The notes beneath the pieces were generated by a model, which was given only the letters and a program-made list of their open reading frames with translations, searched no databases and was not told where the DNA came from. DNA of 64,000 bases, from positions 240,854 to 304,853 of the forward strand of contig NZ_LMCY01000008.1 of NCBI RefSeq assembly GCF_001425685.1. Direction: 5' to 3'. Below, piece after piece: positions 5,388-26,199 of this stretch. The translations under genes and the position numbers were made by a program. Each line of letters begins with the position of its first letter. Within the stretch, counting starts at the first letter, position 1. Source of the DNA: Massilia sp. Root335 (GTDB taxonomy: Bacteria; Pseudomonadota; Gammaproteobacteria; Burkholderiales; Burkholderiaceae_D).

Positions 5388-5688
5388 CTTTGTATCCTAA
5401 CGGATAGGCCGCTTGTGAGACGGTCCTCTAAACAAGGGCTGTGGTGTCTATCGGCAACATTTGCATTTAGCGTCGGTAATATGCTTGTAAAGACGTTATT
5501 GACATGACAGATGGGGGGCGCGGTTTTTAGCATTATGTTGCTCGCCAACAACAAGAAAATTCTAGTTTTTCAAGTAAAACTCTCGCTTTTAAACCTAATT
5601 GTGAATTCAATTGTGTCGTAAATATAGCATTATTGTGGCGTTTTATTGCTTTCTTTGCAATAAAAATGGTGCAGGACAGCAAATTTGC
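5388..5688. other. AT-rich region left of the iteron cluster, no gene supported
   Basis: There are 300 bases without a convincing gene. AT-rich blocks increase toward 5560-5660, directly beside the first iteron, as is common for the melting region of replication origins. Short open frames have no ribosome binding site. Confidence 0.45.
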
Positions 5689-5755
5689 GTGCCATCGTTA
5701 GAGATTTCAGTGCCATCGATAGAGCGAAGTGTGCCGTCATTAGAGAGGCTGAAAA

Positions 5756-5764
5756 TGTGGATAA
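5756..5764 (-). other. DnaA box
   Basis: TGTGGATAA is the exact reverse complement of the consensus TTATCCACA. It lies 10 bases inside the last forward iteron. Confidence 0.7.
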
Positions 5765-5829
5765 CTCAAATGCATCATGATAGGCCAATGATTTATAAAG
5801 AGTTTTGGAATTAATAAGACGAATAAAAG

Positions 5830-5838
5830 TTATCCACA
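5830..5838 (+). other. DnaA box
   Basis: A perfect TTATCCACA lies six bases before the first reverse iteron, mirroring the box at 5756. Confidence 0.7.
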
Positions 5839-5965
5839 GAAATTCTCTAAGAATGGCACTGAAATCTCTAACGGTGGCACATTTCACTAGCGATGGCACA
5901 TTACCTCTCTAACGACGGCACAGGACCTCTCTAATGACGGCACCGGACCTCTCTAACGATGGCAC

Positions 5966-6248
5966 AATTGGAGTCGATTTTCCTATTGTAATCAATGACT
6001 TATATGGGGCGTAAACAGTCTTAAAGGTTTACAATAAAAACTCAAGCTGTTTTTAACCGCGTGCGCGAGCTGGTGGACTACCAGCATGCGGGCTACCCGT
6101 TTTGTCGTGATTGAACTTAGTGACCAAGGTGTTGAGACGTTGCATTTGGCCTGAAAGATCATTTACGATTGGAAAGTGATGCTGCCGATACGATCATGGA
6201 TCGAGCCGCAGTGCGTAGTAGTAGCGCTGCACCCTAGCTCTTAAGCGC
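5966..6248. other. region right of the iterons, possible gene remnant
   Basis: This stretch of about 280 bases is AT-rich to 6055 and then GC-richer. Bases 6056-6113 read as a short fragment (RVRELVDYQHAGYPFCRD, stop) without a start, which may be the tail of a decayed gene. Nothing else was recognised. Confidence 0.35.
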
Positions 6249-6287
6249 TTGACATGGTATCAACTAAAATAACTAAAAGTTAAGGGA
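6249..6287 (+). promoter_or_regulatory. putative promoter and ribosome binding site of the GHKL gene
   Basis: A consensus -35 TTGACA (6249-6254) is followed after 16-17 bases by a weak -10 (AACTAA/ACTAAA). AAGGGA at 6283-6287 then sets the start at 6293. Confidence 0.4.
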
Positions 6288-6292
6288 CGGTC

Positions 6293-8296
6293 ATGGTGCA
6301 CGGTACGAACAAGACTGACCAAAGCTTTGGCTCGCTCTTCGAAGAGGACTACCTGATCCGAAATCTGGGCCAGATAGCGCACGACCCCGAGGTCGCTCTT
6401 ACCGAGCTCGTAGCCAACGCCTGGGATGCCGGCGCGTCCTCAGTCGATATCGCCATCCCGGACGAGCTCAACGGCAACCTCATCGTAGAAGATGACGGTC
6501 ATGGCATGAGCTCCGCGCAGTTCAAGGCGCGTTGGATGAAGCTCTCCTATGATCGCGTCAAGCACCAAAGCCAAGATGTGGAGTTCCCGCCAGAGCGCAC
6601 AGGATGGGTTCGGCGCGCTTATGGTCACAACGGGGTGGGACGTCACGGCATGCTGTGCTTTGCAGACGTCTACGAGGTTCAAACTTGGCGAGAGGGGAAG
6701 GGCGCCTCCTTCGTTGTGAGCACTCATAGTCAGGCGACGCCGTTCAAGGTGGATAGCGAGATGCCGTTCGAGCGTACAGGTCACGGCACGAAGCTCATCA
6801 CGAAGGTCGGGCGACATCTGCCTGACCCAGATCGTATCCGTGACATCCTCTCCGCGCGCTTCTTGCATGATCCACAGTTCGTCGTTCGAGTGAATGGTGC
6901 ATCCATCGCGCTGCCTGAGCATACTGGGTTGGTGGAGAAGGCTACTTTGGAGATCGGGGCAGGCAGATCGATCGAGGCCTTCGTGGTCGACACGACACGC
7001 AGTGCGAAGTCGACCTTGTACCAAGGTGTGGCATTTTGGGTTAACGGGCGCCTTGTTGGCACGCCGAGCTGGGTCGTCGGCAACGCTGTCGTGTTGGATG
7101 GACGCAGCCGGTTCGCGAAGCGATACACAATCGTGGTGCAGTGCGGCCCCGAGTGGATCGTCGATATTGAGCCCGATTGGACTAGGTTTAGGCCAACCAA
7201 TGCTGTCCGCGCGATGAACTCGGCAGTGGCGACTTACGCGGCGCAAGTATTCGCGAAGCTCTCAGAGGAGTTCGTCGACGACAGCTCTCAAGACGCCTTA
7301 GTGCGCAACCGTGAGTCATTCAAAGACCTGTCCACCTTAGCGCGAATCGAGGTGGCGAGCTTCACCCGAGAGCTGGTCAAGCGCAATCCTGGCATTAATA
7401 CCGAGACGCTGGCCATTGCGGTCGAAGCGGTGATCAATTTGGAAAAGTCGCGTAGCGGCGTCGCGCTGCTCGAAAAGCTCACTAAACTGGAGGAAGCAGA
7501 CGTTGAAGCCCTCGACCGCATGTTAGGACAGTGGTCGGTGCGAGACGCGCTTTCGGTACTGGACGAGATCGACATGAGGCTTAGCGTCATCGAAGCGATC
7601 GACAAGCTGGCGGGTGACTCGGCCACCGACGAGCTCCACACCCTGCACCCTTTGGTGACTCAGGCCCGCTGGCTCTTTGGACCGGAGTTTGACAGCCACG
7701 AATACACCTCGAACGTGACCCTGAGGACCGTCGCTGACAAGATCTTCGGTCAAAGCGTCGAGCCAAGCGCTTTCTTGAATCCGACGCAGCGTCCTGACAT
7801 CGTCGCCCTCGCCGACGCTACGTTTTCGATCGTTGGTACCGAAGGCTACGACAGCTTCGACACCATGTTGACCCGCATCCAAAACGTGTTGATCATCGAA
7901 CTCAAGAAGGGCGAATCGTCCATCGGACGCCCCGAAATGACCCAAGCGGATGGCTATGTCCAAGACTTTCTCCAAAGTGGCGCCATGGATGGCACTCCGT
8001 TGATCCGAGCGTTTGTGGTCGGCCACCGGATCTCATCGAAGACCACAAAGGAGAAGCTCATCGTGGATGAGGGCGTCGTTCGTGGCAAGGTCGTGGCCAC
8101 GACGTATGGCCAGCTGACCCGGAGTGCAAGCCAGCGGCTCTTTAAGCTCAGGGAGAAGATCCCTGCACGGTATGAGCACGTTTCTGGCGCCGACCTGATG
8201 TCACGCGTCATGCAGACGCCGTCGCAAGCGGGCTTCGACCTTAACGAGCAAGCTGCGGCTTCTACCGAAATCGACCAATCGGAAGTTGAAGCTTGA
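6293..8296 (+). CDS. GHKL (Hsp90/MORC-like) ATPase fused to a C-terminal PD-(D/E)xK-like domain
   Basis: This protein has 667 residues. The N-terminal ATPase shows all Bergerat-fold boxes: N box ELVANAWDAGAS (N42), G1 VEDDGHGM (about 65-72), G2 GHNGVGRHG (111-119) and GHGTKL further on. The middle (about 330-470) is helical. The C-terminal part has RPDIVAL with D502, then LIIELKKGE with E536-x-K538, then a conserved-looking Q/Y region (TQADGYVQDF), the D-(x)n-ExK pattern of PD-(D/E)xK nucleases. Hsp90-like ATPases joined to nuclease domains occur in several anti-phage systems. The gene stands alone with its own promoter at the edge of a restriction-rich island. I do not recognise a named system. 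The nuclease assignment rests on the motif only. Confidence 0.8.
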   Translation: MVHGTNKTDQSFGSLFEEDYLIRNLGQIAHDPEVALTELVANAWDAGASSVDIAIPDELNGNLIVEDDGHGMSSAQFKARWMKLSYDRVKHQSQDVEFPPERTGWVRRAYGHNGVGRHGMLCFADVYEVQTWREGKGASFVVSTHSQATPFKVDSEMPFERTGHGTKLITKVGRHLPDPDRIRDILSARFLHDPQFVVRVNGASIALPEHTGLVEKATLEIGAGRSIEAFVVDTTRSAKSTLYQGVAFWVNGRLVGTPSWVVGNAVVLDGRSRFAKRYTIVVQCGPEWIVDIEPDWTRFRPTNAVRAMNSAVATYAAQVFAKLSEEFVDDSSQDALVRNRESFKDLSTLARIEVASFTRELVKRNPGINTETLAIAVEAVINLEKSRSGVALLEKLTKLEEADVEALDRMLGQWSVRDALSVLDEIDMRLSVIEAIDKLAGDSATDELHTLHPLVTQARWLFGPEFDSHEYTSNVTLRTVADKIFGQSVEPSAFLNPTQRPDIVALADATFSIVGTEGYDSFDTMLTRIQNVLIIELKKGESSIGRPEMTQADGYVQDFLQSGAMDGTPLIRAFVVGHRISSKTTKEKLIVDEGVVRGKVVATTYGQLTRSASQRLFKLREKIPARYEHVSGADLMSRVMQTPSQAGFDLNEQAAASTEIDQSEVEA

Positions 8297-8824
8297 TGGA
8301 TGAGTCGGTCTCAGGCGTGCCTTTGCTGAGGTGAGAAGTGAAGGCCGCCCCAATGTTCACCTGTTACACGATGAGGCCGTAGCGTCGATAAACAATCTTG
8401 CGATTGCATGCCGCCGACCGCGTTCGCGCATTTACGGTCGAGTGCGTTAGCTAAGTACACCTAATAAAACCCTCCAGTTGCTCTGCAGGCAACAGCCGGG
8501 TACACTGAGCCGTGCCGACCGTCCGCAATTGGCCCTAGCTGTGTAAAAACGCCAAATCACGACGTTTTCGGGGGTCTCTTTAACATTTCTAACCTCATGA
8601 AAACGCCGTAGCGAGCGTTTTAGATGGCCGAGCTTCGCGGACGTCTCGCCGGGTCTGCGTTTTTACAACGCCTCGGCCAGGAGCAAACGGTCACCACAGT
8701 AGGGCCAATCGTCGTCGTGGTCTGACCGCTGACATCTTACCGGCCATTTGAATTTTCTTAAGCGAGAAACGCCGGGAAACGGGCATAATGATAGGCTGCT
8801 TATCACAATCAGAGAATTAAAACC
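8297..8824. other. 528-bp non-coding stretch with nested inverted repeats
   Basis: No gene is supported. An 11-bp perfect inverted repeat, TGTAAAAACGC (8542-8552) and GCGTTTTTACA (8657-8667), bounds 126 bp. Inside it AAAACGC (8600-8606) pairs with GCGTTTT (8615-8621). The ends resemble termini of IS5-type elements, so this may be an insertion-sequence or MITE relic. The rest shows nothing recognisable. Confidence 0.45.
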
Positions 8825-8837
8825 ATGAGGATGTTTT

Positions 8838-9041
8838 ATGGATTTTTTAGATATAGATGATAGTGTCGAGGAGGTTAGGCGTGCTGATGGCTTCGCTGCC
8901 ACCACTACTGCCGCAGCCAAAGTCGTCGGCATTGCCGCAATTAATGGCATTATTTTTGCCGGCAAGGAAATATTTTCCGGTCGAGTTACTACAGCAATAT
9001 CAGAAGCGGTCGAGAGGGAAAAAGAAAAGTTAAAGAAATAA
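8838..9041 (+). CDS. small hypothetical protein with a hydrophobic centre
   Basis: This 67-residue protein has an acidic N-terminus (MDFLDIDDSVEEV), then an alanine/glycine-rich hydrophobic stretch (about residues 25-42) that could be one membrane helix, then a charged helical tail ending in EREKEKLKK. GAGGATG precedes the start. The family is not recognised. Size and charge pattern are compatible with a small membrane or toxin-like peptide, but this is speculation. Confidence 0.5.
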   Translation: MDFLDIDDSVEEVRRADGFAATTTAAAKVVGIAAINGIIFAGKEIFSGRVTTAISEAVEREKEKLKK

Positions 9042-9147
9042 AGCTGCGCTTTTCCAGCGCGACATCAGCGTATCGTAAAATTGGCATAAGCCAAAAGCTT
9101 GCGAAAATAAATTTTCAAGCTCAATTTAAGATTTAAGGAGTTCAAAA

Positions 9148-9333
9148 GTGCCGGTCAAAAAAGTTGATGATTTGAAGGACCCTGTGGATAGAAGAGCAGG
9201 CCAGCAGTGGCAAGAAGCTCTTGGCATTCCTGACCTAACGACACGCGAGTTGGATTATATTTGCGATCGCCATCAGGGTAGTTCCGACCATGAGATTCGC
9301 CAGGCAATCCTAGATCGTCGACAAGGCAAATGA
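9148..9333 (+). CDS. small hypothetical protein (GTG start)
   Basis: This 61-residue protein starts at GTG after a good AAGGAG ribosome binding site 7 bases upstream, the reason for choosing this start. The sequence is soluble and helical (DPVDRRAGQQWQEALGI, then LTTRELDYICDRHQGSSDHEIRQAIL). It has a loose likeness to small stress-linked DUF3606-type proteins, not enough for assignment. It sits alone between two other small genes. Confidence 0.5.
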   Translation: MPVKKVDDLKDPVDRRAGQQWQEALGIPDLTTRELDYICDRHQGSSDHEIRQAILDRRQGK

Positions 9334-9469
9334 CAGAGCTTGCGCCCTTTCTTGCCATCCATGCAGCGAGAGCTTACAGTCGGTCGCTGCAGACGTCTGC
9401 AAGCGGCCTTGAATTCGACTGGTGATGCCATACTGTGAGCACTCAGCAACCAGAGCGAAAGAGTAATAC

Positions 9470-9877
9470 ATGCCCCAAATGCTTATCGTAAGTTGGACTG
9501 ATTCTAATTCTGGGACAGATGCCAGCTCCGCAGGTTCTGTTAAATGGCACTTCGTTAAAGACGAATCAGGCGACAAGACGCTCTGTGACTTCTCGCTTCC
9601 GGCGCCAAAGAGCCGAAAGTATGCCGAGATTCGTACAGAGGAGATGGTCAATATAAAGGGTTTTTGCTTCACTTGTTTTCACAATGTTTGCATCGATGAG
9701 CAGGACGAAGACCTTTGGCAGATTTTCAATAGGGTAGAAGAACTAAATAGCTGTTTGAACGAAATAGGGAGTGCAATTAAGGACTCCAAATGCTCTCCGG
9801 AAGAAATCAACTCCGCCCTTGCGTTATATGAACAACTAGTATCGCACACCGTTATCAAGTCTTTAACGGGCGACTAG
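9470..9877 (+). CDS. hypothetical protein
   Basis: This 135-residue protein is not recognised. The N-terminal half is beta-like and polar and carries FCFTCFHNVC, three Cys close together that may bind metal. The C-terminal half is helical (LWQIFNRVEELNSCLNEIGSAI). There is no signal peptide or membrane segment. A GAAAGAG sequence lies upstream of the ATG. The transposase relic follows about 110 bases downstream. Confidence 0.5.
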   Translation: MPQMLIVSWTDSNSGTDASSAGSVKWHFVKDESGDKTLCDFSLPAPKSRKYAEIRTEEMVNIKGFCFTCFHNVCIDEQDEDLWQIFNRVEELNSCLNEIGSAIKDSKCSPEEINSALALYEQLVSHTVIKSLTGD

Positions 9878-9989
9878 TGCTGCGCATTTCGACCAAAGTA
9901 AGTCCTGTGGTAGCGGTAGTTGTCGCTGACGATGTCCGCTCTGGGGCGATCGCGGAAATACACAAGCTAAGTCTGACCATTAAGATGGC

Positions 9990-10440
9990 GGCCATGTTCG
10001 TAGACGGACTGATGCCATGGCCCGAGCACTTCTTCTCGAAGACCTGTGGTCGCTTATATCAACTCATCTTCCTGTCCACCACCGATCGCCAAAAGGCGGA
10101 CGGCCACGTATAGATGATCGCGCGGCCCTGCTCGGAATCCCGTTTGTCCTCAAGACCGGAATACAGCTGGAATACCTGCCGCGCGAACTCGGTTGCGGGA
10201 GTGGCATATCATGCTGGCGTCGGCTTCATGAATGGATGCATGTCGGTGTCTGGCAGTCTGTCCACGAGGCGGTTCTTCGACGGCTCCGCGAGCACGACCA
10301 AATCACGCGGAATCGGGCTGCGTTGATGTCGCCAGTGTACCGGCGCCTGCCGGTGACGGGCATACGGGTAGAAATCCTACAGATCGTGGCAAATTTGGCC
10401 TGTGTAGCAAAGCCACCCTACGACGCAGCGTCGGCATAGG
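9990..10440 (+). pseudogene. IS5-family transposase remnant, frameshifted and truncated
   Basis: The frame from 10017 encodes an IS5-type N-terminus: [25 protein letters not shown], then LPRELGCGSGISCWRRLHEW. Near 10330 homology moves to another frame that reads ASVPAPAGDGHTGRNPTDRGKFG, the conserved G-G-x-x-TGxNPTDRGK block preceding the catalytic domain. The remaining catalytic half (DDE residues) is missing. It is therefore a dead IS copy with at least one frameshift and a 3' deletion. Confidence 0.8.
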
Positions 10441-10447
10441 CGACTTG

Positions 10448-10828
10448 TCAGGTGACTGCACGTTTGTTGAGCTTCTTAAGATTGCACGGCCAACACAAGA
10501 TTTGTGCATTGCTAGGATCGTTTGTGCCGCCCAGTTGGGGTGAAACAATGTGATCAAAGTGCCAAGGTGTATCCGGATGTTGGCTGTGCCGTGGAATTAG
10601 ACTCCAAGGAACGGAACACAACGGGCAAGAGTTCGGATGCGCGGCTAACAGCTTGGCTTTTGTCGCGGCAGAGAAAGCGCCTCCGGAAGCCTTTAAGCGT
10701 GCCGCGTACTCTTTGCTCCTTTGCTTTTGACACGTCATGCAACGGCTATGGCTGTTCCAAGGCGTTGTCGCATTGCACTTGCTGCAATACTTCTTGGGGC
10801 GCGCTTCGATGGGAATGCGAGTTGTCAT
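10448..10828 (-). CDS. HNH endonuclease
   Basis: This 126-residue protein has an N-terminal zinc-ribbon-like segment (CSKCNATTPW, RCMTCQKQR). It is followed by a classical HNH fold: CPLC, then WHFDHIVSPQLGGTNDPSNAQILCWPCNLKK with the catalytic DHI, the Asn and two CxxC zinc pairs. Small HNH proteins of this layout cut DNA and are common in phages and defence islands. It starts at the ATG at 10828. It ends next to the dead transposase and lies near the Mrr and Type ISP genes. Confidence 0.85.
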   Translation of the reverse strand: MTTRIPIEARPKKYCSKCNATTPWNSHSRCMTCQKQRSKEYAARLKASGGAFSAATKAKLLAAHPNSCPLCSVPWSLIPRHSQHPDTPWHFDHIVSPQLGGTNDPSNAQILCWPCNLKKLNKRAVT

Positions 10829-10929
10829 CTCTTCGCTTACATTGGTCTAACCGTTCCGGCCACTCTTGACCGGGCTAAGTCGCCGAGATCGATAACGAGC
10901 TTTGGATACATGCGCATGTAGCACTTGCC

Positions 10930-11337
10930 TCAAGCTTGAACGTATTCCCCGTATCGAAGCAATCCGGCTTTAGCTAGGCCTAGAATGACATGCATCTGCT
11001 GGTTATAGGTCTTGCCGGACGCATGTGTAACTAGGTTCCAGAGCTGTCTCGGAACCATCGCCGCATAACTAGGATGTTCGGCAAGAAGTGCTAAGCAATC
11101 TTTCGCGTGGCGAGCATTCTCACTGGTTCCAACCATGCCTGTGGCAGGCACATCCTTGACCGCACCGCTAGTGCAGAGAGTCAGAAAAGTCGTCCGAGGA
11201 CAGCCCTTGGACTGCATGGCAACACTCTCGGGAAACACTTCAACTGCTGCAGCGTCCCAGGCCTCGCGCGCCGAAATCGGACGACCACTACGAAGTTTTA
11301 GAGCAGCTCGTATTGCAACGTCGGCATAGTCTGGCAT
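10930..11337 (-). CDS. DUF6979-like hypothetical protein
   Basis: This 135-residue protein has a motif pattern I associate with the DUF6979 family: MPDYADVAIRAALKL, REAWDAAAVEVFP, KGCPRTTFLTLC and a C-terminal HxSGKTYNQQMHVILGL. Function is unknown. It starts 8 bases after the stop of the Mrr-like gene on the same strand, so the pair is probably one operon and this may be a partner of the nuclease. Confidence 0.6.
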   Translation of the reverse strand: MPDYADVAIRAALKLRSGRPISAREAWDAAAVEVFPESVAMQSKGCPRTTFLTLCTSGAVKDVPATGMVGTSENARHAKDCLALLAEHPSYAAMVPRQLWNLVTHASGKTYNQQMHVILGLAKAGLLRYGEYVQA

Positions 11338-11345
11338 GGCTGCTC

Positions 11346-12269
11346 CTAACTTAACGGTGATAGGAAACGAATGGGACGCAAAGGAAGTCGCCTACGTGCT
11401 TGGTCAGTCAATTTTTCGTAGTGTTCGACCCAGAGATCAAACAGTTTATCGAGGCTGATTAGGGTAATGCGCCGCTTTTCTTGTGTTCTCGCTTCGAACT
11501 CCGCGTCTTTTGTGAAACCTCCGGTACAAACGAACAGCCCAACGTCATCGTCGCCTAAGACCGCCATGAAGGAACGCAAGCCATCGACAGAGACCGCCTG
11601 TTGCTGCCGTTTGACCTGCACCTTTATTCGCGGCGGTCGCGTGCCGAGCGGATCTGGCCAAGCAAGAATATCAACCCCACCATCTTTTCCGGGAGGCGAG
11701 ACCCAGCTAACGTGGTACGACATCGCTCGAAGTAGGTCGGCTACCAGGTCCTGAAATTCGTACGGATTCATCGCTCTTAAATACGTCGAGATCTCGGACC
11801 AAGCCTGTTCTTCGGCCTCATCGAACGTAACGCTCACGGCCTTGGCCGATGTGTCCAGCGTCTCAGAGATTTCATCCGTAGGTTTGAGCGCATTTGTCGC
11901 GGTATCGCTGGCATCCGCATTTGGCTGGGATGCTTTCCATTCCGCATATAGCTTGACTGCCCGTCGATAAAAAGCTTCTGGGTCCGAAAAGTCCTCCAAA
12001 GCCTGTCGTCCTTCGTCTGTGACGGACCATGTCCCCTTCTCTTTGATGAGCCACCCTGCCTTGACACAATCGACAGTCGCAAACCTGACCACTTTTTCGA
12101 AGCGCCGACCACCTGACTCGTAGTCACCAGCCTCATAAGCCGTCAGCGTTACCTCTGCAGCAAGCTGATGCAGAGCGTCGCGCGCAGGAAGGCCCGTTGA
12201 ACTAGCTAGCAAAATTGAGAAGAGCTTCTGCAGGAGCTCGCCCGTTCGTCTGCGCGTAATTTCCGCCAC
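11346..12269 (-). CDS. Mrr-type restriction endonuclease
   Basis: This 307-residue protein has an N-terminal winged-helix, Mrr_N-like part (residues 1-110, with VTDEGRQALEDF), a linker, and a C-terminal Mrr catalytic domain (about 165-290). That domain shows MNPYEFQDLVADLLRAMSY, then GGVDILAWPDPLG (catalytic Asp) and IKVQVKRQ (QxK), the PD-(D/E)xK signature of this family. Mrr enzymes cut DNA carrying methylation foreign to the host. It is divergent from the Type ISP enzyme and shares a 0.3-kb promoter region with it. The downstream DUF6979-like gene is probably cotranscribed. Confidence 0.88.
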   Translation of the reverse strand: MAEITRRRTGELLQKLFSILLASSTGLPARDALHQLAAEVTLTAYEAGDYESGGRRFEKVVRFATVDCVKAGWLIKEKGTWSVTDEGRQALEDFSDPEAFYRRAVKLYAEWKASQPNADASDTATNALKPTDEISETLDTSAKAVSVTFDEAEEQAWSEISTYLRAMNPYEFQDLVADLLRAMSYHVSWVSPPGKDGGVDILAWPDPLGTRPPRIKVQVKRQQQAVSVDGLRSFMAVLGDDDVGLFVCTGGFTKDAEFEARTQEKRRITLISLDKLFDLWVEHYEKLTDQARRRLPLRPIRFLSPLS

Positions 12270-12594
12270 TTAGTACCCCTAACTATTGATTTTCAGATTC
12301 TATATCAATCGACTGATTTCACGCCGAATGGAATCGTACGATTTGCGACGGCGGCAACTGTATTAAGGTTCGATGGCAAACGCTGTTGATCCACTGCTTC
12401 CGGTCGTTGCCGACGTTCGCCGCAGCTCAGTGGCCATGGGGAAAATTTTCATTTATTCATGGTACAGTTTAGGGTTTGAGTTACAGCAAGGTACAGCATT
12501 TGGTTGCCTCGCGAGCAACGCTCATCAGGCCTGGGAGCAACGCAGAGTGTTTCGCTGGTTGCCCCCAAAGAAATATAGGTAATTGACAACTTTC
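12270..12594. promoter_or_regulatory. divergent promoter region with a 12-bp palindrome
   Basis: This region separates the divergent Mrr-like and Type ISP genes. A perfect palindrome AATCGTACGATT lies at 12332-12343 and may be an operator serving both. A short open frame at 12373-12582 lacks coding character and was not called. Confidence 0.4.
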
Positions 12595-15500
12595 ATGACC
12601 GCACTTTCCTCGCTGCTCGATCACTACCGCCAGTCCTCTCAGTCTGAACGTGAAAAGGGCACTTACTTCGAAGAGCTAATGCTCTGCTATCTGCGCAACG
12701 AGGCGACTTACCGTGACCTCTACAGCGATGTCTGGACCTACAGTGATTGGGCTGAGTTACAGGGGCTAGACAAGCGCGACGCCGGGATCGACTTGGTGGC
12801 GAAGACCCACGGTACAGGCGAGATTCATGCGATCCAGTGCAAGCTATATGCCGAGGACTACCGGCTGCAGAAGAGCGATATCGACAGTTTTTTCACCGCC
12901 TCAGGGAAGAAGCCTTTCGCCCACCGCATCATCGTAAGTACCACAAACCACTGGAGCACTCATGCCGAAGAGGCACTGCGCGACCAGCAGCCGCCCGTTA
13001 GCAAGATCGACCTGAACGATTTGGAGAACAGTCAGATCGATTGGGGCAAATACCAGCCGAAGGCTGTCCCGGTACTCAAGGTCAAGAAGCAGCTCCGGCT
13101 CCACCAGCAGCAGGCCCTGGATGCTGCGCTGTCTGGATTGCAGACCGCCGACCGGGGCAAGCTCATCATGGCCTGCGGCACGGGTAAGACGTTCACCAGC
13201 CTGAAAATCGCGGAGGCCCTCGCCGGGAGGGGCAAGCGCGTACTGTTCTTGGTGCCGAGCCTGTCCCTGCTCTCGCAGACGTTGACCGAGTGGACTCAGG
13301 AGAGTGCTACGCCGCTGCATAGCTTCGCAGTCTGCTCGGACAGCGACGTTGGCAAGAAACGCCAAAAGGACGACGACAGCGTCCAGACCTTCACTCATGA
13401 GTTGCGCTACCCGGCCACGACCCACCCAGCTCGCTTGGCCTCCGAGATGGCCAAGCGGCACGACGCGGCGCACATGAGCGTGGTCTTCAGCACCTATCAC
13501 TCTATTGACGTTATCAGCCGTGCGCAGCACGAACACGGCTTGGCTGAGTTCGACCTCATCGTTTGCGACGAGGCGCATCGCACTACGGGCGCTACCTTCG
13601 GCGATGATGACGAGAGCAATTTCGTGAAGGTGCACGACTCGGCCTTCATCCGATCGGCCAAGCGTCTATACATGACGGCGACACCGCGCATTTATGGTGA
13701 TAGCGCTAAGGCCAAGGCCGAACTGGACAGCGTGGCATTATGCTCAATGGACGACCCAACCCTATACGGGCCAGAGCTCCATGTCATCACCTTCTCCGAG
13801 GCCGTTCGGCGCGGCCTACTGGTGGACTATAAGGTCATCGTATTGTCGGTCGAAGAGAGCCATGTTAACCGCCGCATCCAGTCACTGCTCAAGGATGAGA
13901 ACAACCAGCTCAAGGTTGACGACGCAGCTAAGATTATTGGGTGCTGGAAGGCCTTGGCGAAGCAGGGGCTTACCGAGGACCTGAATGGCGATCACGAGTC
14001 CATGAAGCGTGCCGTGGCCTTCTGCCAAGTCATCGAAGTAAGCAAGGGGGCAAAGACCCATAAGGTCAGCTCTAAGAACATCGCAGGGATGTTTCAGGCT
14101 GTGGTCGAAGCCTACCAAGAGTCTGAGGAAGACGATGCAGCCTCGACGTTGGCCTGCGAAGCGGAGCACGTTGACGGCAGCATGAACGCCAGCGAGAAGG
14201 AGTCTAAGCTCGCTTGGCTCAAGGCCGATGCCGACGACAACACGTGCCGTATCCTAAGCAATGTACGTTGCCTGTCTGAAGGTGTCGATGTACCTGCCCT
14301 GGATGCGGTGCTGTTCTTGACCCCTCGTAATTCCCAGGTGGACGTTGTGCAGTCGGTCGGTCGGGTCATGCGCAATGCGCCTGGAAAGAAGCGTGGCTAT
14401 GTTGTCCTGCCAGTCGTGATTCCGGCTGGCGTGGAGCCACACGATGCTCTGAACGACAACAAGACCTATGCAGTGGTCTGGCAAGTTCTACAGGCACTGC
14501 GTTCGCATGACGACCGCTTCGACGCGATGGTCAACAAGTTAGACTTGATCGGCAAAGACGCAAGCAAGATGGAGGTCGTCGCCATCACCGATAAGATTCA
14601 GCGGAAGCAAGGAAAGCCCAAAGGGCCGAAAAACAAGGAGGCGGGCAAGGGGGAATTCGTGATTGGTGAGTCGCCAGCCCCGCGCTACAGCAAGCAAGAT
14701 CAAGCATCCCTGCAGTTCGAAATCGGCGACATTGAGAAGGCTATCTACGCGAAGCTGGTGCAGAAGGTGGGCAACCGTCACCACTGGGAAGACTGGGCCA
14801 ACGACATTGCCAAGATTGCCCGCACTCACATCGACCGCATTACTGCGATCGTTGAAGACCCGGCTCACGTGAAGGAGCGAGCAGCCTTCAACGCTTTCGC
14901 CGATGAACTGCGTGACGACCTCAACGGCAGCATCAGTGACGGCGAGGTAATCGAGATGTTGGCCCAGCATCTCATCACCAAGCCAGTTTTTGATGCCTTA
15001 TTCGAAGACTACAGCTTTGCTAAGCACAACCCGATTTCACTGGCCATGCAGGACGTGCTCGACGTGCTGCAAGAGCACCGACTGGACAAAGAGGCTGATA
15101 CTCTCCAGCGCTTTTACGACAGCGTCAAAATGCGCGCTCAAGGCATCGACAACGCCGCTGGCAAGCAGAAGATCGTCGTCGAGCTTTACGACAAGTTCTT
15201 CCGCAACGCCTTCCCAAAGATGACCGAGCGGCTGGGCATCGTTTATACCCCGGTGGAGGTAGTGGACTTCATTATCCATAGCGTGGCCCACATCTTGAAG
15301 ACCGAGTTTGGGCAGACCTTGGGTAGTAAGGGCGTGCACATCATTGACCCATTCACCGGCACCGGCACCTTCATCACTCGGCTGCTGCAAAGTGGCCTGA
15401 TCGCACCTCAGGATCTGCCCCACAAGTACAAGCACGAAATCCATGCCAATGAGCTTGTGCTGCTAGCCTATTACATCGCCGCCATTAACATCGAGGCGGT

Positions 15501-17538
15501 CTATCACGGCATCGTAGGCGGCAAGTATCAGCCGTTCGAAGGTATCTGCCTTACCGACACTTTCCAGATGTACGAGAAAGAAGACTTGGTCGATACGCTG
15601 CTGGTGGACAACAGTGCACGGCGCAAGCGGCAGAAAAAGTTGGACATTCGCGTCATCATTGGAAATCCACCTTACTCTATTGGTCAAGGCAGCCAGAACG
15701 ATAACAACCAGAATGTCGCCTACCCGCACCTGGACAGTCAGATCGAAGACACGTACGCGGCACGGTCGGACGCAGCCCTGTCGAAAGGACTCTACGACAG
15801 CTACATCCGCGCTATCCGCTGGGCGAGCAATCGAGTTGGCACTAGCGGCGTCATCGGATTCGTGACCAATGCTAGTTTCTTGGATACCGGAACTTTTGAT
15901 GGGCTTCGCAGGTGCTTGGCAGACGAGTTCAGCAGCATCTATGTTTTCCATCTGCGAGGGAACGCTCGCACATCGGGAGAACTACGACGTAAAGAAGGCG
16001 GTAACGTATTTGGTCTTGGCAGTCGAGCTCCGATAGCAATTTCGTTACTTGTCAAAAACCCACAAAGCGAGAACACTGGCGAGGTTCGGTTCTGCGACAT
16101 AGGCAACTATCTGAATCAGTTGGAGAAGCTGGCCAAGATCGAGTCTTTGCGTAGCATTGAAGGTATCACAGCCGAGAACGGATGGCATGTCATTACGCCG
16201 GATGACCATGGCGACTGGTTGAAGCAGCGAGACGACAGCTTCCTAGAGCATATTGCACTCGGTGACAAGAAAGGCGATGGTCCGACGTTGTTCGAAACCT
16301 TCTCCTTAGGTGTCGTTACCAACCGTGATGCTTGGTGTTACAACGCCTCGAAGACCGCATTGGCAGCTAATATGACGCGGATGATCGACTTCTATAACGC
16401 AGAGGCTGACCGCTTCAACCATACTCATCATGGCTTGAACAAAAAGCAAAGGGAGGCGCTGGTCGATGGCTTCGTAAGCGCCGACGCCTCAAAAATAGCT
16501 TGGACTGTTAATCTCAAGCAGGAACTCGTTCGTGATCGGCGTTTCGCTATGGAGCCAGCCTGCATTGTTCCTGGACTGTATCGCCCGTTCAACAAGCAGT
16601 GGCTGTACTTCAATCGCAGTTTCAATGAAAGAGTTTTGAAGATGCCGCGCATATTCCCGAATGCCAACTCGGAGAACATCGTTATCGGTGTCTCTGCCTC
16701 GGCTTCTCGCAGCGCATACTCTGTCTTCATCAGCGACCACGTTGCGAGCCTACATGCCGTGGACATGGTAGGCTCGCAATACTTTCCGCTCTATCTCTAC
16801 GACGACCCGGAACCGGAATGTGCAGAAATAAGTACCGAGCAGTTCGCCTTATTCGACGAAGTAAGTCAGCCTGCGTTGTCTCCGCCGACTAAGCGTCGTG
16901 ACGCCATTACATTAGAAGGGCTAATTCACTTCCAGTCTGCCTATGCCGGCGAGAAAATTGAGAAGGAAGACATCTTCTACTATGTCTACGGCATGTTACA
17001 TTCGCTCGACTACCGTAATCGCTTCGTCGACAACTTAGGCAAAGAGCTGCCACGTATTCCCCGTGTAAAAACAGCGGCTGACTTCTGGGCGTTTTCCAAA
17101 GCTGGCCGCAAGCTGGCTGACCTGCACTTGCACTATGAACGCGTAGAGCCTTATCCGCTAAAGATCGAAAATGCAAGCAAGAAGCTCATCGATGCGGACT
17201 ATCGCGTCGAAAAAATGCGCTACGGTAAGAATGGCAAGGACAAGGACTTGACGACTTTACATTACAACGACAAGGTCACGTTGACCGGTATTCCGCTGGA
17301 AGCCTACGACTATGTCGTCAACGGTAAGCCGGCACTCGACTGGGTAGTGGAACGTCAGGGCATCAGGGCTGATAAGGATAGCGGCATCATTAACGACGCC
17401 AACGATTGGGCATTCGAGACTGCGGGCAATCCTCGCTACCCGTTAGAACTGTTCCAGCGCGTAGTTACCGTTAGTATAGAGACGATGAAAATCGTACGGG
17501 CACTGCCTAATCTCGACATTGCGCCACAATCTGCCTGA
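12595..17538 (+). CDS. Type ISP restriction-modification enzyme (LlaGI/LlaBIII-like)
   Basis: One polypeptide of about 1647 residues carries all activities. An N-terminal Mrr-like nuclease has DAGIDLVAK (D66) and IQCKLY (Q81-x-K83). A superfamily 2 translocase has ACGTGKT (about 193) and DEAH (about 325), with a helicase C-terminal part ending QSVGRVMRNAPG. A gamma N6-adenine methyltransferase has DPFTGTGTF (about 919) and NPPYS (about 1024). A target recognition domain fills the rest. Length and order match LlaGI and LlaBIII. Such enzymes methylate one strand of an asymmetric site and translocate until two enzymes collide and cleave. The chosen ATG at 12595 fits family N-termini; a TTG at 12583 is the alternative. 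No frameshift is seen, so it should be active. Confidence 0.95.
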   Translation: MTALSSLLDHYRQSSQSEREKGTYFEELMLCYLRNEATYRDLYSDVWTYSDWAELQGLDKRDAGIDLVAKTHGTGEIHAIQCKLYAEDYRLQKSDIDSFFTASGKKPFAHRIIVSTTNHWSTHAEEALRDQQPPVSKIDLNDLENSQIDWGKYQPKAVPVLKVKKQLRLHQQQALDAALSGLQTADRGKLIMACGTGKTFTSLKIAEALAGRGKRVLFLVPSLSLLSQTLTEWTQESATPLHSFAVCSDSDVGKKRQKDDDSVQTFTHELRYPATTHPARLASEMAKRHDAAHMSVVFSTYHSIDVISRAQHEHGLAEFDLIVCDEAHRTTGATFGDDDESNFVKVHDSAFIRSAKRLYMTATPRIYGDSAKAKAELDSVALCSMDDPTLYGPELHVITFSEAVRRGLLVDYKVIVLSVEESHVNRRIQSLLKDENNQLKVDDAAKIIGCWKALAKQGLTEDLNGDHESMKRAVAFCQVIEVSKGAKTHKVSSKNIAGMFQAVVEAYQESEEDDAASTLACEAEHVDGSMNASEKESKLAWLKADADDNTCRILSNVRCLSEGVDVPALDAVLFLTPRNSQVDVVQSVGRVMRNAPGKKRGYVVLPVVIPAGVEPHDALNDNKTYAVVWQVLQALRSHDDRFDAMVNKLDLIGKDASKMEVVAITDKIQRKQGKPKGPKNKEAGKGEFVIGESPAPRYSKQDQASLQFEIGDIEKAIYAKLVQKVGNRHHWEDWANDIAKIARTHIDRITAIVEDPAHVKERAAFNAFADELRDDLNGSISDGEVIEMLAQHLITKPVFDALFEDYSFAKHNPISLAMQDVLDVLQEHRLDKEADTLQRFYDSVKMRAQGIDNAAGKQKIVVELYDKFFRNAFPKMTERLGIVYTPVEVVDFIIHSVAHILKTEFGQTLGSKGVHIIDPFTGTGTFITRLLQSGLIAPQDLPHKYKHEIHANELVLLAYYIAAINIEAVYHGIVGGKYQPFEGICLTDTFQMYEKEDLVDTLLVDNSARRKRQKKLDIRVIIGNPPYSIGQGSQNDNNQNVAYPHLDSQIEDTYAARSDAALSKGLYDSYIRAIRWASNRVGTSGVIGFVTNASFLDTGTFDGLRRCLADEFSSIYVFHLRGNARTSGELRRKEGGNVFGLGSRAPIAISLLVKNPQSENTGEVRFCDIGNYLNQLEKLAKIESLRSIEGITAENGWHVITPDDHGDWLKQRDDSFLEHIALGDKKGDGPTLFETFSLGVVTNRDAWCYNASKTALAANMTRMIDFYNAEADRFNHTHHGLNKKQREALVDGFVSADASKIAWTVNLKQELVRDRRFAMEPACIVPGLYRPFNKQWLYFNRSFNERVLKMPRIFPNANSENIVIGVSASASRSAYSVFISDHVASLHAVDMVGSQYFPLYLYDDPEPECAEISTEQFALFDEVSQPALSPPTKRRDAITLEGLIHFQSAYAGEKIEKEDIFYYVYGMLHSLDYRNRFVDNLGKELPRIPRVKTAADFWAFSKAGRKLADLHLHYERVEPYPLKIENASKKLIDADYRVEKMRYGKNGKDKDLTTLHYNDKVTLTGIPLEAYDYVVNGKPALDWVVERQGIRADKDSGIINDANDWAFETAGNPRYPLELFQRVVTVSIETMKIVRALPNLDIAPQSA

Positions 17539-17565
17539 TCACCAGGTTTTGATCAAGGTAAGGTT

Positions 17566-17919
17566 GTGGCTTCTTTCAACGCAACTAATCAGGTAACAAT
17601 GCACGACCTATCGAAATATTCGCTCGCACAACTCCGGGCGCTGGATGCGAAAGTAATCGAGGAATTAAAAACTCGATATTTCCTCAGCATTAGTATGGCT
17701 CGTGAGCAGATCCTTCACATCGCTCAAAGTGTTGGAATTTCCGAAAAAGAGCTTCTTCGCATCAAAACCCCTGTAACTACAACAAAAAGCACCGTCAAGG
17801 TTAAGTATCGTAATCCTAGTAATTCTGCCGAACAGTGGAGCGGTCGAGGACGAAAGCCGGCATGGGTTAAAGAATGGATTGCCTCGGGCAAGTCAATCGA
17901 GGATGCGAAAGTTAATTGA
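17566..17919 (+). CDS. H-NS family nucleoid-associated protein
   Basis: This 117-residue protein has an N-terminal oligomerisation helix region (LSKYSLAQLRALDAKVIEELKTR) and the C-terminal H-NS DNA-binding motif VKYRNPSNSAEQWSGRGRKPAWVKEW, with the WSGRGRKP core. H-NS-like proteins silence AT-rich foreign DNA; an element-borne copy can lower the cost of the island. The start is a GTG at 17566 after AAGG; an in-frame ATG at 17599 would also leave the whole domain. It follows the Type ISP gene by 27 bases and may be cotranscribed. Confidence 0.88.
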   Translation: MASFNATNQVTMHDLSKYSLAQLRALDAKVIEELKTRYFLSISMAREQILHIAQSVGISEKELLRIKTPVTTTKSTVKVKYRNPSNSAEQWSGRGRKPAWVKEWIASGKSIEDAKVN

Positions 17920-18254
17920 TGTTGCTCTAAGTCATAGCGTTATACACATCTTTTTTAACCAACAAAATCAATGGGTTGTAGCCAGTTCCGCAAAGGCTCC
18001 GCCGACACGGGGAACAACGAAAAATTGTGCTTTTGATATAAAACACCTACTTCTCGCCTAAATTTTAGGCAATTCCTCATGAAAATCGTGGCTCCAGACT
18101 CAAATGGTGTGGAGCGGAAAAAGATGTGTATAACGATATGGCTCTAAGCAGGCTTAGACGGTCGAGTTGAGACTAGATTTTGAGGTCGGAAAACCATCAC
18201 GCCCTCACTTGCATTACACCTCCGGCATACCAACGCTCTAAGTGAGTTGTCACA
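17920..18254. other. intergenic region, no gene supported
   Basis: About 335 bases lie between the H-NS-like gene and the AGTGCG motif cluster. No coding frame with a ribosome binding site and no strong repeat was seen. Confidence 0.4.
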
Positions 18255-18345
18255 AGTGCGAAAAACGCACTGCATCTTCACGGCCAACACACCGCTAACG
18301 CACTTTAGCCCGAAGCACGAATTCTGATAGTGCGTTCATAGTGCG
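18255..18345. repeat. cluster of AGTGCG / CGCACT motifs
   Basis: AGTGCG and CGCACT form a perfect hairpin with an AAAAA loop at 18255-18271. Three further copies of the same hexamer follow in both orientations up to about 18345. The placement upstream of a relaxase suggests protein-binding sites in a transfer origin. Confidence 0.5.
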
Positions 18346-18464
18346 GAAAACACACCGATAATACACCGAGTTAACACCTCGCTTAGCGAAGATGAGATAT
18401 CGCTTGCGGAGCGGATTTTGACGTCTGTCTTTCGCCTCACTGCGAGCGCGGCTCCTTGAAAGGA

Positions 18465-18540
18465 CGCTCCATTTATGGAGCGGAACCCCCTTTAGGGGGC
18501 AGACGACACTTTCCCTTTAGGGGAAGTGTCTAGTCTGCTA
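18465..18540 (+). other. candidate oriT with three consecutive hairpins and a pMV158-like nic site
   Basis: Hairpin 1 is CGCTCC-ATTTAT-GGAGCG (18465-18482). Hairpin 2 is CCCCC-TTTA-GGGGG (18486-18499). Hairpin 3 spans 18499-18538, with outer arms GCAGAC and GTCTGC and an 11-bp inner stem around another TTTA loop (18505-18530). Directly at its end, TAGTCTG/CTA (18531-18540) resembles the pMV158-type nic TAGTGTG/TTA. It lies about 100 bases before a MobV-like gene. The oriT role is an inference. Confidence 0.55.
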
Positions 18541-18637
18541 ATAGCCACTACCCCAGATTATAAAAATGACCTTTTCGGCGTGATAATATATCTTCATGAA
18601 TTGTATAAATATAATTATAATTACATGGAGAAAAATC

Positions 18638-20008: not shown

Positions 20009-20070
20009 AATGCTGTGTTTTTCGCAAAATTCCAACAATATTTTTGCGAAAAAAGGAGGCGAACAATAAA

Positions 20071-20619: not shown

Positions 20620-20826
20620 GTGCGCCTCCGTGCTTTATTTTTGAGTAAATTCCATACTTCTACAACTATATTAGACGGGATTTTATAAGAGATTCCGGAG
20701 GGTAAGGGGATTTGAAAATATTTTTGAATTCTGGTGCAAGATTCTTCACATGTTGAGATAATTTATGAGTGGTTCAGGTTGCTTTTTGTCGAAAAAGCGT
20801 ATTAGTCTAACTTTAAAGGGGGGGCT

Positions 20827-21297: not shown

Positions 21298-21377
21298 TGC
21301 AAAAAGTAGTGAATTCGCTTTTCGTCAGCGTGCCCGACAATTACAATAAATATGTGTAATGTAAGGAGAGCGATGCG

Positions 21378-22061: not shown

Positions 22062-22071
22062 AAGGTTTCAG

Positions 22072-22557: not shown

Positions 22558-22676
22558 GCAACTATAAGCAACTGTATCTTGGGTCTGGTCACCTAGGCTC
22601 GTTGACCCTTTGTAATACATGCGACTGCCGAGAGTGCAAGATTGGAGGCCCTACTAACTGATTCATGGGGCTTCAA
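22558..22676. promoter_or_regulatory. leader of the hcp cassette
   Basis: Two adjoining TAAGCAACT copies lie at about 22555-22573. A TTGACC at about 22601 could be a -35. No terminator separates this from the upstream gene. Confidence 0.3.
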
Positions 22677-23168: not shown

Positions 23169-23174
23169 GCGCTT

Positions 23175-23963: not shown

Positions 23964-25034
23964 TTATGCCTCAACTGCCACAGCCTCGGGCTTCCGCTTA
24001 GGCATCTGCCAAGACAAGTTACCCTCCTCGTCGGGATGCAGATCTTCGGGGCGCAGCTGGGTATACCGTTCGAGCATCTTCCAGTCCATATGCCCAGTTA
24101 CCATCGCAACTCGGGGGATGTCGTAGCCCCGCTCAAACAGCCTGGACGCTCCTTCATGCCTCAGGTCGTGAAAGCGAAGGTCAATAATGCGGCAAGCCTT
24201 TACTGCGCGAGGGAAGATAGTGCTGAATGTCTTGGCGTCGTAGGGAAAAATGCGATCATCGGTGCGGGGCTGAGCCATCACAATATCCCAAGCTTTTCCA
24301 AGCAGGGGCACAACCTGGTTGCGCTTCTTTCGAGGATGCTTCCTATCTCGTATAATGACAGTCTTCTTTACGAAGTCTACGTCTGACCACCTGATTCGAG
24401 TGATCTCAGAAGCACGCATAGCCGATGCCACCGCAAAGTCAATGATTGTGGACATTGGGATCTGCTGCCGAGGCTTCTCGTCAAAGTGCTTCCTGAGCTT
24501 CATGAGTTCTTCCTCTGTCGGTCGCCTGTCTCGACGGTTCGACTTGGGATCGAGCCCGTTGTCAGACATGTAACCGCGAATCTCAGTGAACAGTTTCGGC
24601 TCGAAATCATACTTGTAGTGCGTCTTGCATGATCGAAGGACAGTAGCAATCTCAGCTATGTCCATGTAAATCGTAACGCCGCCTGCTCCCGCGACTTCGC
24701 GGTCCTCGACGAAAGTAACAAGGCGCTCGAAGGTGAGGGCAGGGAGAACAACGTTGCCGAGCATCCTCTTGATGCGTTTGAGGTTCGCCACCTTCGTTTT
24801 GCCGTAGGGCTTGGTGGGCTTTTCTTTCGTTAGGTAGTGGTCAACTAGCGTCCCAAGGTTGATGTCCTTGAGCGCACGCTGGTCCTTGTGCTGCTTTAGA
24901 AGCATCTGAGCCTGGGTCTTGATAGCCCAATCCTTGGCTTCTTTTTGGGTAGGGAAGTTTGCTGAGGTAGATGGAAAGCCCTTTATACGAATGCGAGCTT
25001 GCCACTTGCTGCCGATTTGAAGGATTGTTGCCAC
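23964..25034 (-). CDS. tyrosine recombinase / integrase of the dusA-targeting type
   Basis: This 356-residue protein has an N-terminal arm- and core-binding region (residues 1-160) and a catalytic domain. Catalytic motifs are ASAMRASEITRIRW (Arg I), HDLRHEGASRLFE (HxxR), VTGHMDWKMLERYTQL (His/Trp box and nucleophile Tyr). The start is a GTG with GGAG nine bases upstream. It lies immediately before dusA in the opposite orientation, as in the known group of integrases that insert elements into the 5' end of dusA. It defines the right end of the accessory region. Confidence 0.93.
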   Translation of the reverse strand: MATILQIGSKWQARIRIKGFPSTSANFPTQKEAKDWAIKTQAQMLLKQHKDQRALKDINLGTLVDHYLTKEKPTKPYGKTKVANLKRIKRMLGNVVLPALTFERLVTFVEDREVAGAGGVTIYMDIAEIATVLRSCKTHYKYDFEPKLFTEIRGYMSDNGLDPKSNRRDRRPTEEELMKLRKHFDEKPRQQIPMSTIIDFAVASAMRASEITRIRWSDVDFVKKTVIIRDRKHPRKKRNQVVPLLGKAWDIVMAQPRTDDRIFPYDAKTFSTIFPRAVKACRIIDLRFHDLRHEGASRLFERGYDIPRVAMVTGHMDWKMLERYTQLRPEDLHPDEEGNLSWQMPKRKPEAVAVEA

Positions 25035-25152: not shown

Positions 25153-26199
25153 ATGAATGATGAGAAGCAAGAAAAACCTGTTTTCCCCTATGAGAAGCCA
25201 GTGAAAAAAAATATTTATCAAGGACGCTGTTTGTCCATTGCACCGATGATGGACTGGACCGACCGCCATTGCCGCGTCTTCCACCGCCAGATCACCCGGC
25301 ACACGTGGTTGTATACAGAGATGGTGACGACGGGCGCCCTGGTCTACGGCGACGTCGAGCGCCACCTGCGCTTTGACGACATCGAGCATCCGGTCGCGCT
25401 GCAACTGGGCGGCAGCGATCCGGCCGACCTCGCGAAGAGCGCGAAGCTGGGCGAGCAGTGGGGTTACGACGAGGTGAACCTGAATTGCGGCTGCCCGTCC
25501 GAGCGCGTGCAGAAGGGCGCGTTCGGCGCTTGCCTGATGCAGGAGCCGCAGCTCGTGGCCGATTGCGTGAAGGCGATGCGCGACGCCGTCAGTATCGACG
25601 TCACCGTCAAGCACCGCATCGGCATCGACCATAACGAGGAATATGGATTCGTCCGCGATTTCATCGGCACCATCGCCGACGCCGGCTGCCAGACCTTCAT
25701 CGTGCACGCGCGCAATGCCGTGCTGAAGGGGCTGTCGCCGAAGGAAAACCGCGAGATCCCGCCGCTGCGCTACGAAGTGGCGTACCAGCTGAAACGCGAA
25801 TTCCCCGATCTCGAGATCATCATCAACGGCGGCATCAAGACCGACGACGAGATCGCGACCCATTTGCAGCATGTGGATGGCGTCATGATCGGGCGCGAGG
25901 CCTATCACAATCCGTACGTGATGGCCGGCTGGGATGCCCGGTTCTATGGCGACGCGACGCCGCCGAAGTCGCGCGAACAGGTGCTGGAAGCGATGATCCC
26001 GTATATTCGCGCCGAACTCGACCGCTACGGCCCGCTGGGCCTGCGCCTGAACAGCATCACGCGCCACATGCTGGGGCTGATGGCCGGCCTGCCGGGTGCG
26101 CGCGCATTCCGCCAGTTGCTGTCCGACTCCCGCCGCCTCGCCGAAGGCAATCCCGAACTCCTCCTCGAAGCCGCCGGCCGTCTCCGCCTGGCGGCGTAA
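25153..26199 (+). CDS. dusA: tRNA-dihydrouridine(20/20a) synthase DusA
   Basis: This 348-residue flavoenzyme reduces uridine 20/20a in the tRNA D-loop using NADPH. It shows the DusA hallmarks SIAPMMDWTDRHCR, LNCGCPSERVQKGAFGACLM (catalytic Cys) and VKHRIG. The first 26 residues are unlike DusA of related bacteria, Lys-rich, and encoded by AT-rich DNA, so they are probably supplied by the inserted element, which also provides the promoter. The remainder is intact, so the insertion keeps the gene functional. Confidence 0.96.
   Translation: MNDEKQEKPVFPYEKPVKKNIYQGRCLSIAPMMDWTDRHCRVFHRQITRHTWLYTEMVTTGALVYGDVERHLRFDDIEHPVALQLGGSDPADLAKSAKLGEQWGYDEVNLNCGCPSERVQKGAFGACLMQEPQLVADCVKAMRDAVSIDVTVKHRIGIDHNEEYGFVRDFIGTIADAGCQTFIVHARNAVLKGLSPKENREIPPLRYEVAYQLKREFPDLEIIINGGIKTDDEIATHLQHVDGVMIGREAYHNPYVMAGWDARFYGDATPPKSREQVLEAMIPYIRAELDRYGPLGLRLNSITRHMLGLMAGLPGARAFRQLLSDSRRLAEGNPELLLEAAGRLRLAA
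25235..25262. other. probable attachment site inside the dusA 5' end
   Basis: This stretch encodes the conserved APMMDWTDR segment of DusA, where dusA-specific elements recombine. Codon use and GC change here: the 80 bases before it are AT-rich, everything after is GC-rich. The matching att copy is not in the window. Confidence 0.5.

Follow-up and report, generated by a model that had tools for sequence, protein, structure and literature searches.

A GHKL ATPase–Shedu-type nuclease gene in a defence-rich probable mobile element of Massilia: a probable one-gene defence system from a divergent clade without neighbouring C5 methylases

The gene at 6293–8296 of the window (the whole 64,000-nucleotide stretch of the Massilia sp. 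Root335 genome analysed here) encodes a GHKL ATPase, an S5-type transducer domain, a helical region and a Shedu-type PD-(D/E)xK nuclease domain in a single chain (Table 1). Its product is probably an anti-phage nuclease of the GHKL-Shedu (paraMORC3/VcSduA-like) kind, gated by ATP and acting as a standalone system, one that would spare self without the help of a methylase; the defence function is inferred from domains, relatives and analogy. Both the architecture and its role in defence are already known. What is new, as far as our searches show, is a divergent branch that is missed by the Pfam and PADLOC models of Shedu, and the relation of this branch to methylase-paired enzymes.

Table 1. 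Features of the gene and of the element that probably carries it (window coordinates)
Feature	Position	Strand	Basis
GHKL ATPase–S5–helical–Shedu-type PD-(D/E)xK nuclease gene	6293..8296	+	ORF, Pfam, hhalign, alignments
GHKL (Bergerat) ATPase domain, about residues 20-187 (E38, N42, D67xGxG71, G111xNGxG116, G165-T166)	6350..6853	+	Pfam, motifs, Foldseek
S5-type transducer domain, about residues 197-300, borders approximate	6881..7192	+	Model secondary structure, Foldseek to GHKL+S5 proteins
Helical linker/middle region, about residues 303-440	7199..7612	+	Helices in model, ten-residue pLDDT means 58-91
Shedu-type PD-(D/E)xK nuclease domain, about residues 446-627 (D502, E536-x-K538, Q551)	7628..8173	+	hhalign, VIA-align, alignment
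Nine iteron-like 15-mers (3 on +, 6 on -), between gene and upstream neighbour	5689..5965	.	Motif count
HNH endonuclease-like gene	10448..10828	-	E 4.9e-8
DUF6979 gene, adjoins Mrr	10930..11337	-	Pfam
Mrr-type type IV restriction gene	11346..12269	-	Mrr_cat E 5.1e-24
Type ISP/IIG restriction-modification enzyme, single polypeptide	12583..17538	+	PADLOC 2429 bits
Tyrosine recombinase (integrase) of element	23964..25034	-	Phage_integrase E 1.7e-23
dusA, probable insertion site of element	25153..26199	+	Dus E 8.4e-85; name dusA by eye
att-like repeats	25240-25264 and -5793 (L048:14207, left of window)		Sequence comparison

Results

The open reading frame starts with ATG and runs for 667 codons with no internal stop. 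An earlier, sequence-only reading of this DNA had placed an ATPase and a nuclease motif in this one frame, and the residues are indeed where it put them: N42, D67-D-G-H-G71 and G111-H-N-G-V-G116 at the N-terminal side, D502 and E536-L-K538 at the C-terminal side. When the window protein is aligned with 11 relatives (29–67% identity), N42, D67, G69, G71, G111, N113, G114 and G116 are invariant, as are the nuclease residues D502, E536 and K538. A broader alignment of 30 sequences (the window protein and 29 relatives from several clades) retains E38, N42, D67, G69, G71, G111, G114, G116, G165, D502 and K538 in every row. Position 536 is E in 26 of these and D in the other 4, T166 and Q551 are each found in 29/30, and N113 varies outside the window clade. 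Both active sites are thus conserved across very divergent sequences and must have been kept by selection, so that neither the frame nor its motifs can be put down to chance. The same reading had credited the gene with its own promoter, which our data do not bear out: a consensus scan of 5388–8700 returned 2 promoter-like sites versus 2.0 ± 1.2 in shuffled sequences, neither of them just 5′ of the gene start, although a scan of this kind cannot exclude a promoter. A scan of positions 1–26500 of the window for RNA families gave no match.

Pfam assigns residues 32–143 to HATPase_c_3 (PF13589; E 7.4e-16; 58.8 bits, cut-off 25). When the full structural model was searched with Foldseek, MORC2, TRAP1, Hsp90 and MutL structures appeared among the best 50 matches, mostly over about 350–500 columns, with low whole-chain TM-scores; the packing of domains in the model is poor (pTM 0.42). 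The predicted fold agrees, at this level, with a GHKL+S5 module. Compared with viral models, it likewise gave ATPase-type matches, RIIA-like phage proteins included; neither this search nor that of PDB was informative on the nuclease. NCBIfam's BbrUII/HgiDII model (NF050001) matches the ATPase part as well (residues 36–208, 91.4 bits, E 5e-26, cut-off 550).

One alternative is that the protein serves DNA repair, being a MutL-like or mismatch-repair-type protein captured by a mobile element and having no role in defence. The ATPase does resemble MutL: six of the seven weak phmmer matches in PDB are MutL/PMS2 ATPases, and a profile search of PDB recovers MutL at E 1.3e-6. Iyer et al. raised a repair role for paraMORCs found outside restriction contexts (PMC2292703, in the part of the text available). 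The match to the MutL model TIGR00585, however, covers residues 31–78 only and scores 25.9 bits, far under the equivalog cut-off of 180. The distribution of the family, described below, also bears on this alternative.

The C-terminal region carries no name in direct Pfam, PADLOC and NCBIfam scans. Pfam gave no match there up to E 10, SduA_C/DUF4263 included, and PADLOC's SduA model did not match the protein up to E 0.1. A C-terminal profile found no relative in PDB (one chance-level match, to Lsm3), and Foldseek with the C-terminal model gave nothing below E 7.1e-3, with Shedu absent from the best 50 of 782 matches. VIA-align of the same model placed Shedu entries at the top, with 8ti9 at rank 1, tied with FokI. 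Aligned by hhalign, the family C-terminus and Shedu gave 47.6, versus at most 23.2 in 150 shuffles. This link is visible in hhalign only when alignments are used on both sides: against single sequences, the probability was 0.6–2.4 for six Shedu proteins, compared with 17.2 for L008, 66.1 for L002, 92.3 for L018 and 97.1 for L011, all four of them GHKL proteins from other parts of the tree described below, and with 0.4 and 0.2 for the Mrr and H-NS-like controls. The C-terminal profiles of three clades are related to one another and to Shedu with probabilities of 85.7–98.8 over the six pairs (shuffle maxima of 18.8–24.5 in three of the six, 60 shuffles each). A full-length relative, L064, scores above the Pfam SduA_C cut-off and bridges the window C-terminus to Shedu. 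Judged by these profiles, the C-terminus is homologous to the nuclease core of Shedu while falling below the cut-offs of curated models. Shedu/DUF4263, which the sequence-only reading had named for comparison, was the right choice, borne out by the profiles and by L064, with Shedu level with FokI at the top of the fold comparison, and the reading's proposal of a PD-(D/E)xK fold joined to a GHKL ATPase in one gene stands on Pfam, hhalign and VIA-align; the fold that would have told against it, a C-terminus of some other type, was not what we found.

Close relatives (66–68% identity) occur in at least five loci, in Paraburkholderia, a Gallionellaceae MAG, Burkholderia, Ralstonia and Cupriavidus; the true number may be higher, as the pattern scan of the genome collection detects close relatives only. 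At about 30% identity and at least 80% coverage, eight further records are plasmid-borne, in Rhizobium, Agrobacterium, Azospirillum and Tritonibacter, and six of them entered the analysis (H4 and H5 were left out). Five more relatives (31–47% identity, one a broken copy) are found in IMG/VR contigs, and viral scans with L036 and L035 as queries added no contigs. In a sample of the order, 6 of 399 genomes gave matches at E 1e-15, the window's own among them. Those in the other five comprise full members in G712 and G692, a fragment in G603 and partial matches to the ATPase region in G161 and G640, which leaves three in-family matches, the fragment among them, in the 398 other genomes. A class-wide sample at E 1e-20 gave matches in 0 of 368 other genomes.

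Such patchiness, together with copies on plasmids, in viral contigs and beside defence genes, argues against a captured repair protein. So does VcSduA, the only experimentally tested protein with this architecture that we came across, which is anti-phage (PMC12137116, available text). Two family members, L060 and L007, sit among housekeeping-like genes when judged by eye, as a repair role would allow. We regard that role as very unlikely.

A tree of 30 full-length rows gathers 19 window-family members into one clade (support 100/100). A SduA_C-detectable clade (L011, L062–L064) is separate from it, also at 100/100, and a third clade, whose members pair with C5 methylases (L002, L008, L065, L067, L068), has 94/92; L018 and L066 are two long-branch rows. 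In a tree of the ATPase part, the window family is recovered at 99/98 and the methylase-paired rows weakly (73/53). In the shorter nuclease tree, the window family has 81/95, and L065 does not group with the methylase-paired rows. The program warns of long branches, and we claim no branching order among the clades. The tree and the counts leave out the broken copies L037 (frame interrupted) and G066, the fragment G603, the incomplete matches L038 (partial) and G640 (ATPase part), and L050–L052, which are the same contigs as L036, L035 and L037. L069 is also outside the tree; its methylase was used in the C5 model described next.

The methylase-paired clade raises a second alternative, that the window gene encodes a methylase-guided type II restriction enzyme of the BbrUII/HgiDII kind, which recognises a fixed DNA sequence and works with a cytosine methylase encoded elsewhere in the genome. 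We take this clade to represent BbrUII/HgiDII; the equation is our own, and the two of its proteins that were scanned with PADLOC came out as REase_II. The BbrUII/HgiDII model matches the window's ATPase part, as noted above, and the C-termini of the two clades are homologous by profile–profile comparison (probability 95.7). Moreover, the same genome holds such an enzyme: a second GHKL-nuclease gene (L002) lies at C18 beside a Dcm-type methylase, the window gene being at C8, and L002 matches a PADLOC type II restriction enzyme over residues 7–590 of 652 (268.6 bits).

We searched the loci, 2–10 kb on each side, with a C5-methylase model built from six C5 methylases that adjoin such genes. In the five methylase-paired tree rows, the methylase lies 0–44 bp away (these same methylases helped to build the search model), whereas none of the 19 window-clade tree loci has one in the region searched, the window gene included. 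Counting the broken copy L037, with a C5 methylase 2.8 kb away, the figure is 1/20. Together with the window protein's 91 bits (cut-off 550) and the separate position of its clade in the full-length tree (100/100), this near-absence of C5 methylases from the flanks searched makes a type II enzyme of this kind unlikely here. One observation from outside the window clade may be added: in phage PhiR44_1 (L008), a gene annotated as ParaMORC3 adjoins a Dcm gene and lies between portal and replication genes, among gene names of P2 type.

The sequence-only reading had noted HNH, Mrr and Type ISP genes near the gene, and all three are confirmed, within 10 kb. Across the clade, a gene for defence, candidate defence or restriction can be recognised at 12 of 19 loci within 2–10 kb on each side (the window, L003, L004, L005, L006, L026, L027, L028, L030, L031, L033 and L059), a count that is uncontrolled, being based on chosen neighbours with the rest judged by eye or by record annotation, and that has no background rate. 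The neighbour in L006 is the candidate PDC-M01B, and that in L030 is AbiEii/AbiGii by annotation. Two loci are doubtful, L029 with a HepT-like gene and L061 with a partial match to an Argonaute-associated REase. At L007, L034, L035, L036 and L060, no defence gene was seen by eye, PADLOC having been run on one neighbour, in L007. PADLOC scans of neighbours covered batches of 10, 9 and 10 proteins and one L028 neighbour, plus seven window proteins including the GHKL-nuclease. Four of the loci, the rhizobial L027, L028, L029 and L031, are near relatives. Homologues are therefore not confined to housekeeping contexts, which would have spoken against defence: with the reservation on background just given, 12 of 19 loci show defence-type genes and five show none. 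We saw no partner gene shared by all family loci, and a standalone system is therefore the best reading of the gene.

Some neighbours deserve separate mention. At L061:7525–8917, in G063, the family gene overlaps a gene for 250 residues that has no Pfam or PADLOC match and is followed by another small gene; a remnant of the 250-residue gene may come after the family copy in G712 (L059, by eye). In G066, contig 77 (L010, L024, L025, L041) carries a broken copy, with fragments of 69–73% identity, about 11 kb from a SduA_C gene, which suggests that a defence island of this related genus has decayed.

The gene lies within what is probably an integrative element of about 31 kb, from –5793 to 25264, inserted at the 5′ end of dusA. 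The left att-like repeat, 31 kb away, copies the dusA site imperfectly (16/18 bases) and falls in the gap between a glycoside hydrolase-like gene (by eye) and a Ppl-like gene; no closer, 22-base copy of the site is present in L048. By our own estimate, a 16-of-18 match would arise by chance somewhere in the att scan at a rate of about 0.5, and hence what gives this copy weight is where it lies, at the edge of the island, and the published att repeats, those of dusA islands being semiconserved and 21 bp long (PMC4482086, available text). The 15-bp iteron-like motif occurs nine times in the window versus 0.31 expected, with starts 19–22 bp apart within each cluster and DnaA-box-like sequences in between (by eye). 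The array is probably the plasmid-type replication-origin region of the element and no part of the defence gene. The element also encodes a replication protein of the phage GPA type and, to the left of the window (L048:14743–17823), a PHP/AAA (Ppl-like) protein of 1026 residues. The latter is 62% identical to the product of L004:6844–9930, a gene 70 bp upstream of the Gallionellaceae relative that matches PADLOC's Ppl (3.4e-25); by tblastn of all loci of the analysis, this protein is confined to L048 and L004. A fragment of an IS4/5-family transposase (10017–10439, DUF4096) separates the GHKL gene from the HNH gene.

An element of this type might use the nuclease for its own ends, as a weapon against competing phages or plasmids, and not for host defence as such. 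The probable dusA insertion, GPA-type replication protein, iterons and integrase are in keeping with inter-element exclusion, as are the annotation of paraMORC3 in phage PhiR44_1 and the viral contigs L035 and L037, where family members lie between terminase-like and portal-like genes (by eye), the L037 copy being broken in two pieces. The host-type defence or restriction genes that adjoin 12 of the 19 clade loci speak against it. We consider exclusion rather improbable as the purpose of the gene, and it is compatible with an anti-phage nuclease, not opposed to it.

Discussion

The sequence-only reading could not match the layout to a named one and had seen in the gene its best candidate for an undescribed one-gene defence system. 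We too read it as probably a defence system of one gene, carried by a mobile element rich in defence genes; "undescribed" has to go, because paraMORC3 (2008, PMC2292703) and VcSduA (PMC12137116) share the layout, as far as the available text of both sources shows. As described by Iyer, Abhiman and Aravind in 2008, paraMORC3 proteins combine GHKL and S5 domains with a C-terminal restriction-fold domain bearing E-D-ExK; they are patchily distributed, and a subset are standalone genes that may act independently of restriction systems, the others being described in restriction-modification contexts. These authors proposed DNA looping and gave a MORC-specific motif, GhXhhpXXRhl, in the S5 domain (PMC2292703, same excerpted text). 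The window protein has GHKL followed by S5 (from a model with pTM 0.42), and D502 and E536-x-K538 supply the D and ExK parts.

VcSduA, tested in 2025, was assayed with ATPase and nuclease mutants and showed anti-Drexlerviridae activity in E. coli that was abolished by E27A or K557A, and it protects V. cholerae from phage X29. From growth curves, its authors infer direct restriction with the host preserved, and they predict an entwined dimer with a clamp (PMC12137116, text available). Among the papers listed in our literature searches, this is the only one with an experimentally tested protein of this layout. In the portions of that report available, VcSduA is like the window protein in its N-terminal GHKL ATPase, clamp-like middle and C-terminal PD-(D/E)xK domain in one gene, and no methylase is mentioned; it differs in that its nuclease is described as DUF4263, whereas the window C-terminus is missed by Pfam SduA_C and PADLOC SduA (the two were compared by description only).

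The VcSduA kind was reportedly designated Shedu type I-D by Gu et al. in 2025. With this type, the window protein shares the GHKL motifs and a homologous nuclease core, without a match to curated DUF4263/SduA_C models, and its clade is separate from the SduA_C-detectable clade. Because the curated DUF4263 model fails, we do not count the window clade as a formal member of Shedu and would place it beside GHKL-Shedu as a sister clade, the homology of its nuclease core being judged from profiles. This core is homologous also to that of the Shedu SduA proteins of B. cereus and E. coli (8ti8, 8ti9, 8ps4, 8ps5). To our knowledge, these have no GHKL ATPase. BbrUII/HgiDII (NF050001) resemble the window protein in the ATPase part and, through the paired clade, in the nuclease core, but they are paired with C5 methylases where examined, and the window protein has no such neighbour; our literature search found nothing on HgiDII with an ATPase. 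Two further papers fell away: in the parts available, PMC8011034 deals with a paraMORC with histidine-kinase parts, a different layout, and PMC13092281, with one HATPase mention in a legend, does not describe the layout of the window protein.

By analogy with VcSduA and EcSduA, from which we transfer the mechanism, ATP binding at the GHKL domains may cause two chains to dimerise, as in MutL, MORC and Hsp90, with the S5/helical part acting as a clamp around incoming DNA. Closing or opening of the clamp would then free an otherwise restrained Shedu-type PD-(D/E)xK domain, which would cut the clamped DNA via D502, E536 and K538. As no C5 methylase accompanies the gene in the flanks searched, the sparing of self probably depends on DNA state (ends, topology or a replication intermediate, as has been suggested for Shedu) rather than on methylation. 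EcSduA is described as a tetramer that binds DNA ends through its N-terminal clamp and senses them (reviewed in PMC12904381, available part).

It is conceivable, at somewhat less than an even chance, that GHKL-Shedu proteins are one enzyme family working in two modes, namely C5 methylase-guided type II restriction and a methylase-free clamp that reads DNA state. The window clade, for which we found no name, would then be a further methylase-free branch, standing beside the SduA_C-detectable one. If so, Massilia sp. Root335 carries both modes (C8 and C18), and two strategies for telling self from non-self could be compared in one host. The co-occurrence of methylase-paired and methylase-free forms in one genome makes the sparing of host DNA by an ATP-gated nuclease directly testable. 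By profile comparison, one nuclease core is common to the methylase-paired, SduA_C-detectable and window clades, and a recently tested class of single-gene defence nuclease now reaches a clade missed by the Shedu models of Pfam and PADLOC. The same genus holds a further protein of related make-up: L018, from G040, is a GHKL protein with a Shedu-like C-terminus (PADLOC SduA, 2.3e-4) that branches near L066, a plasmid protein of Bradyrhizobium.
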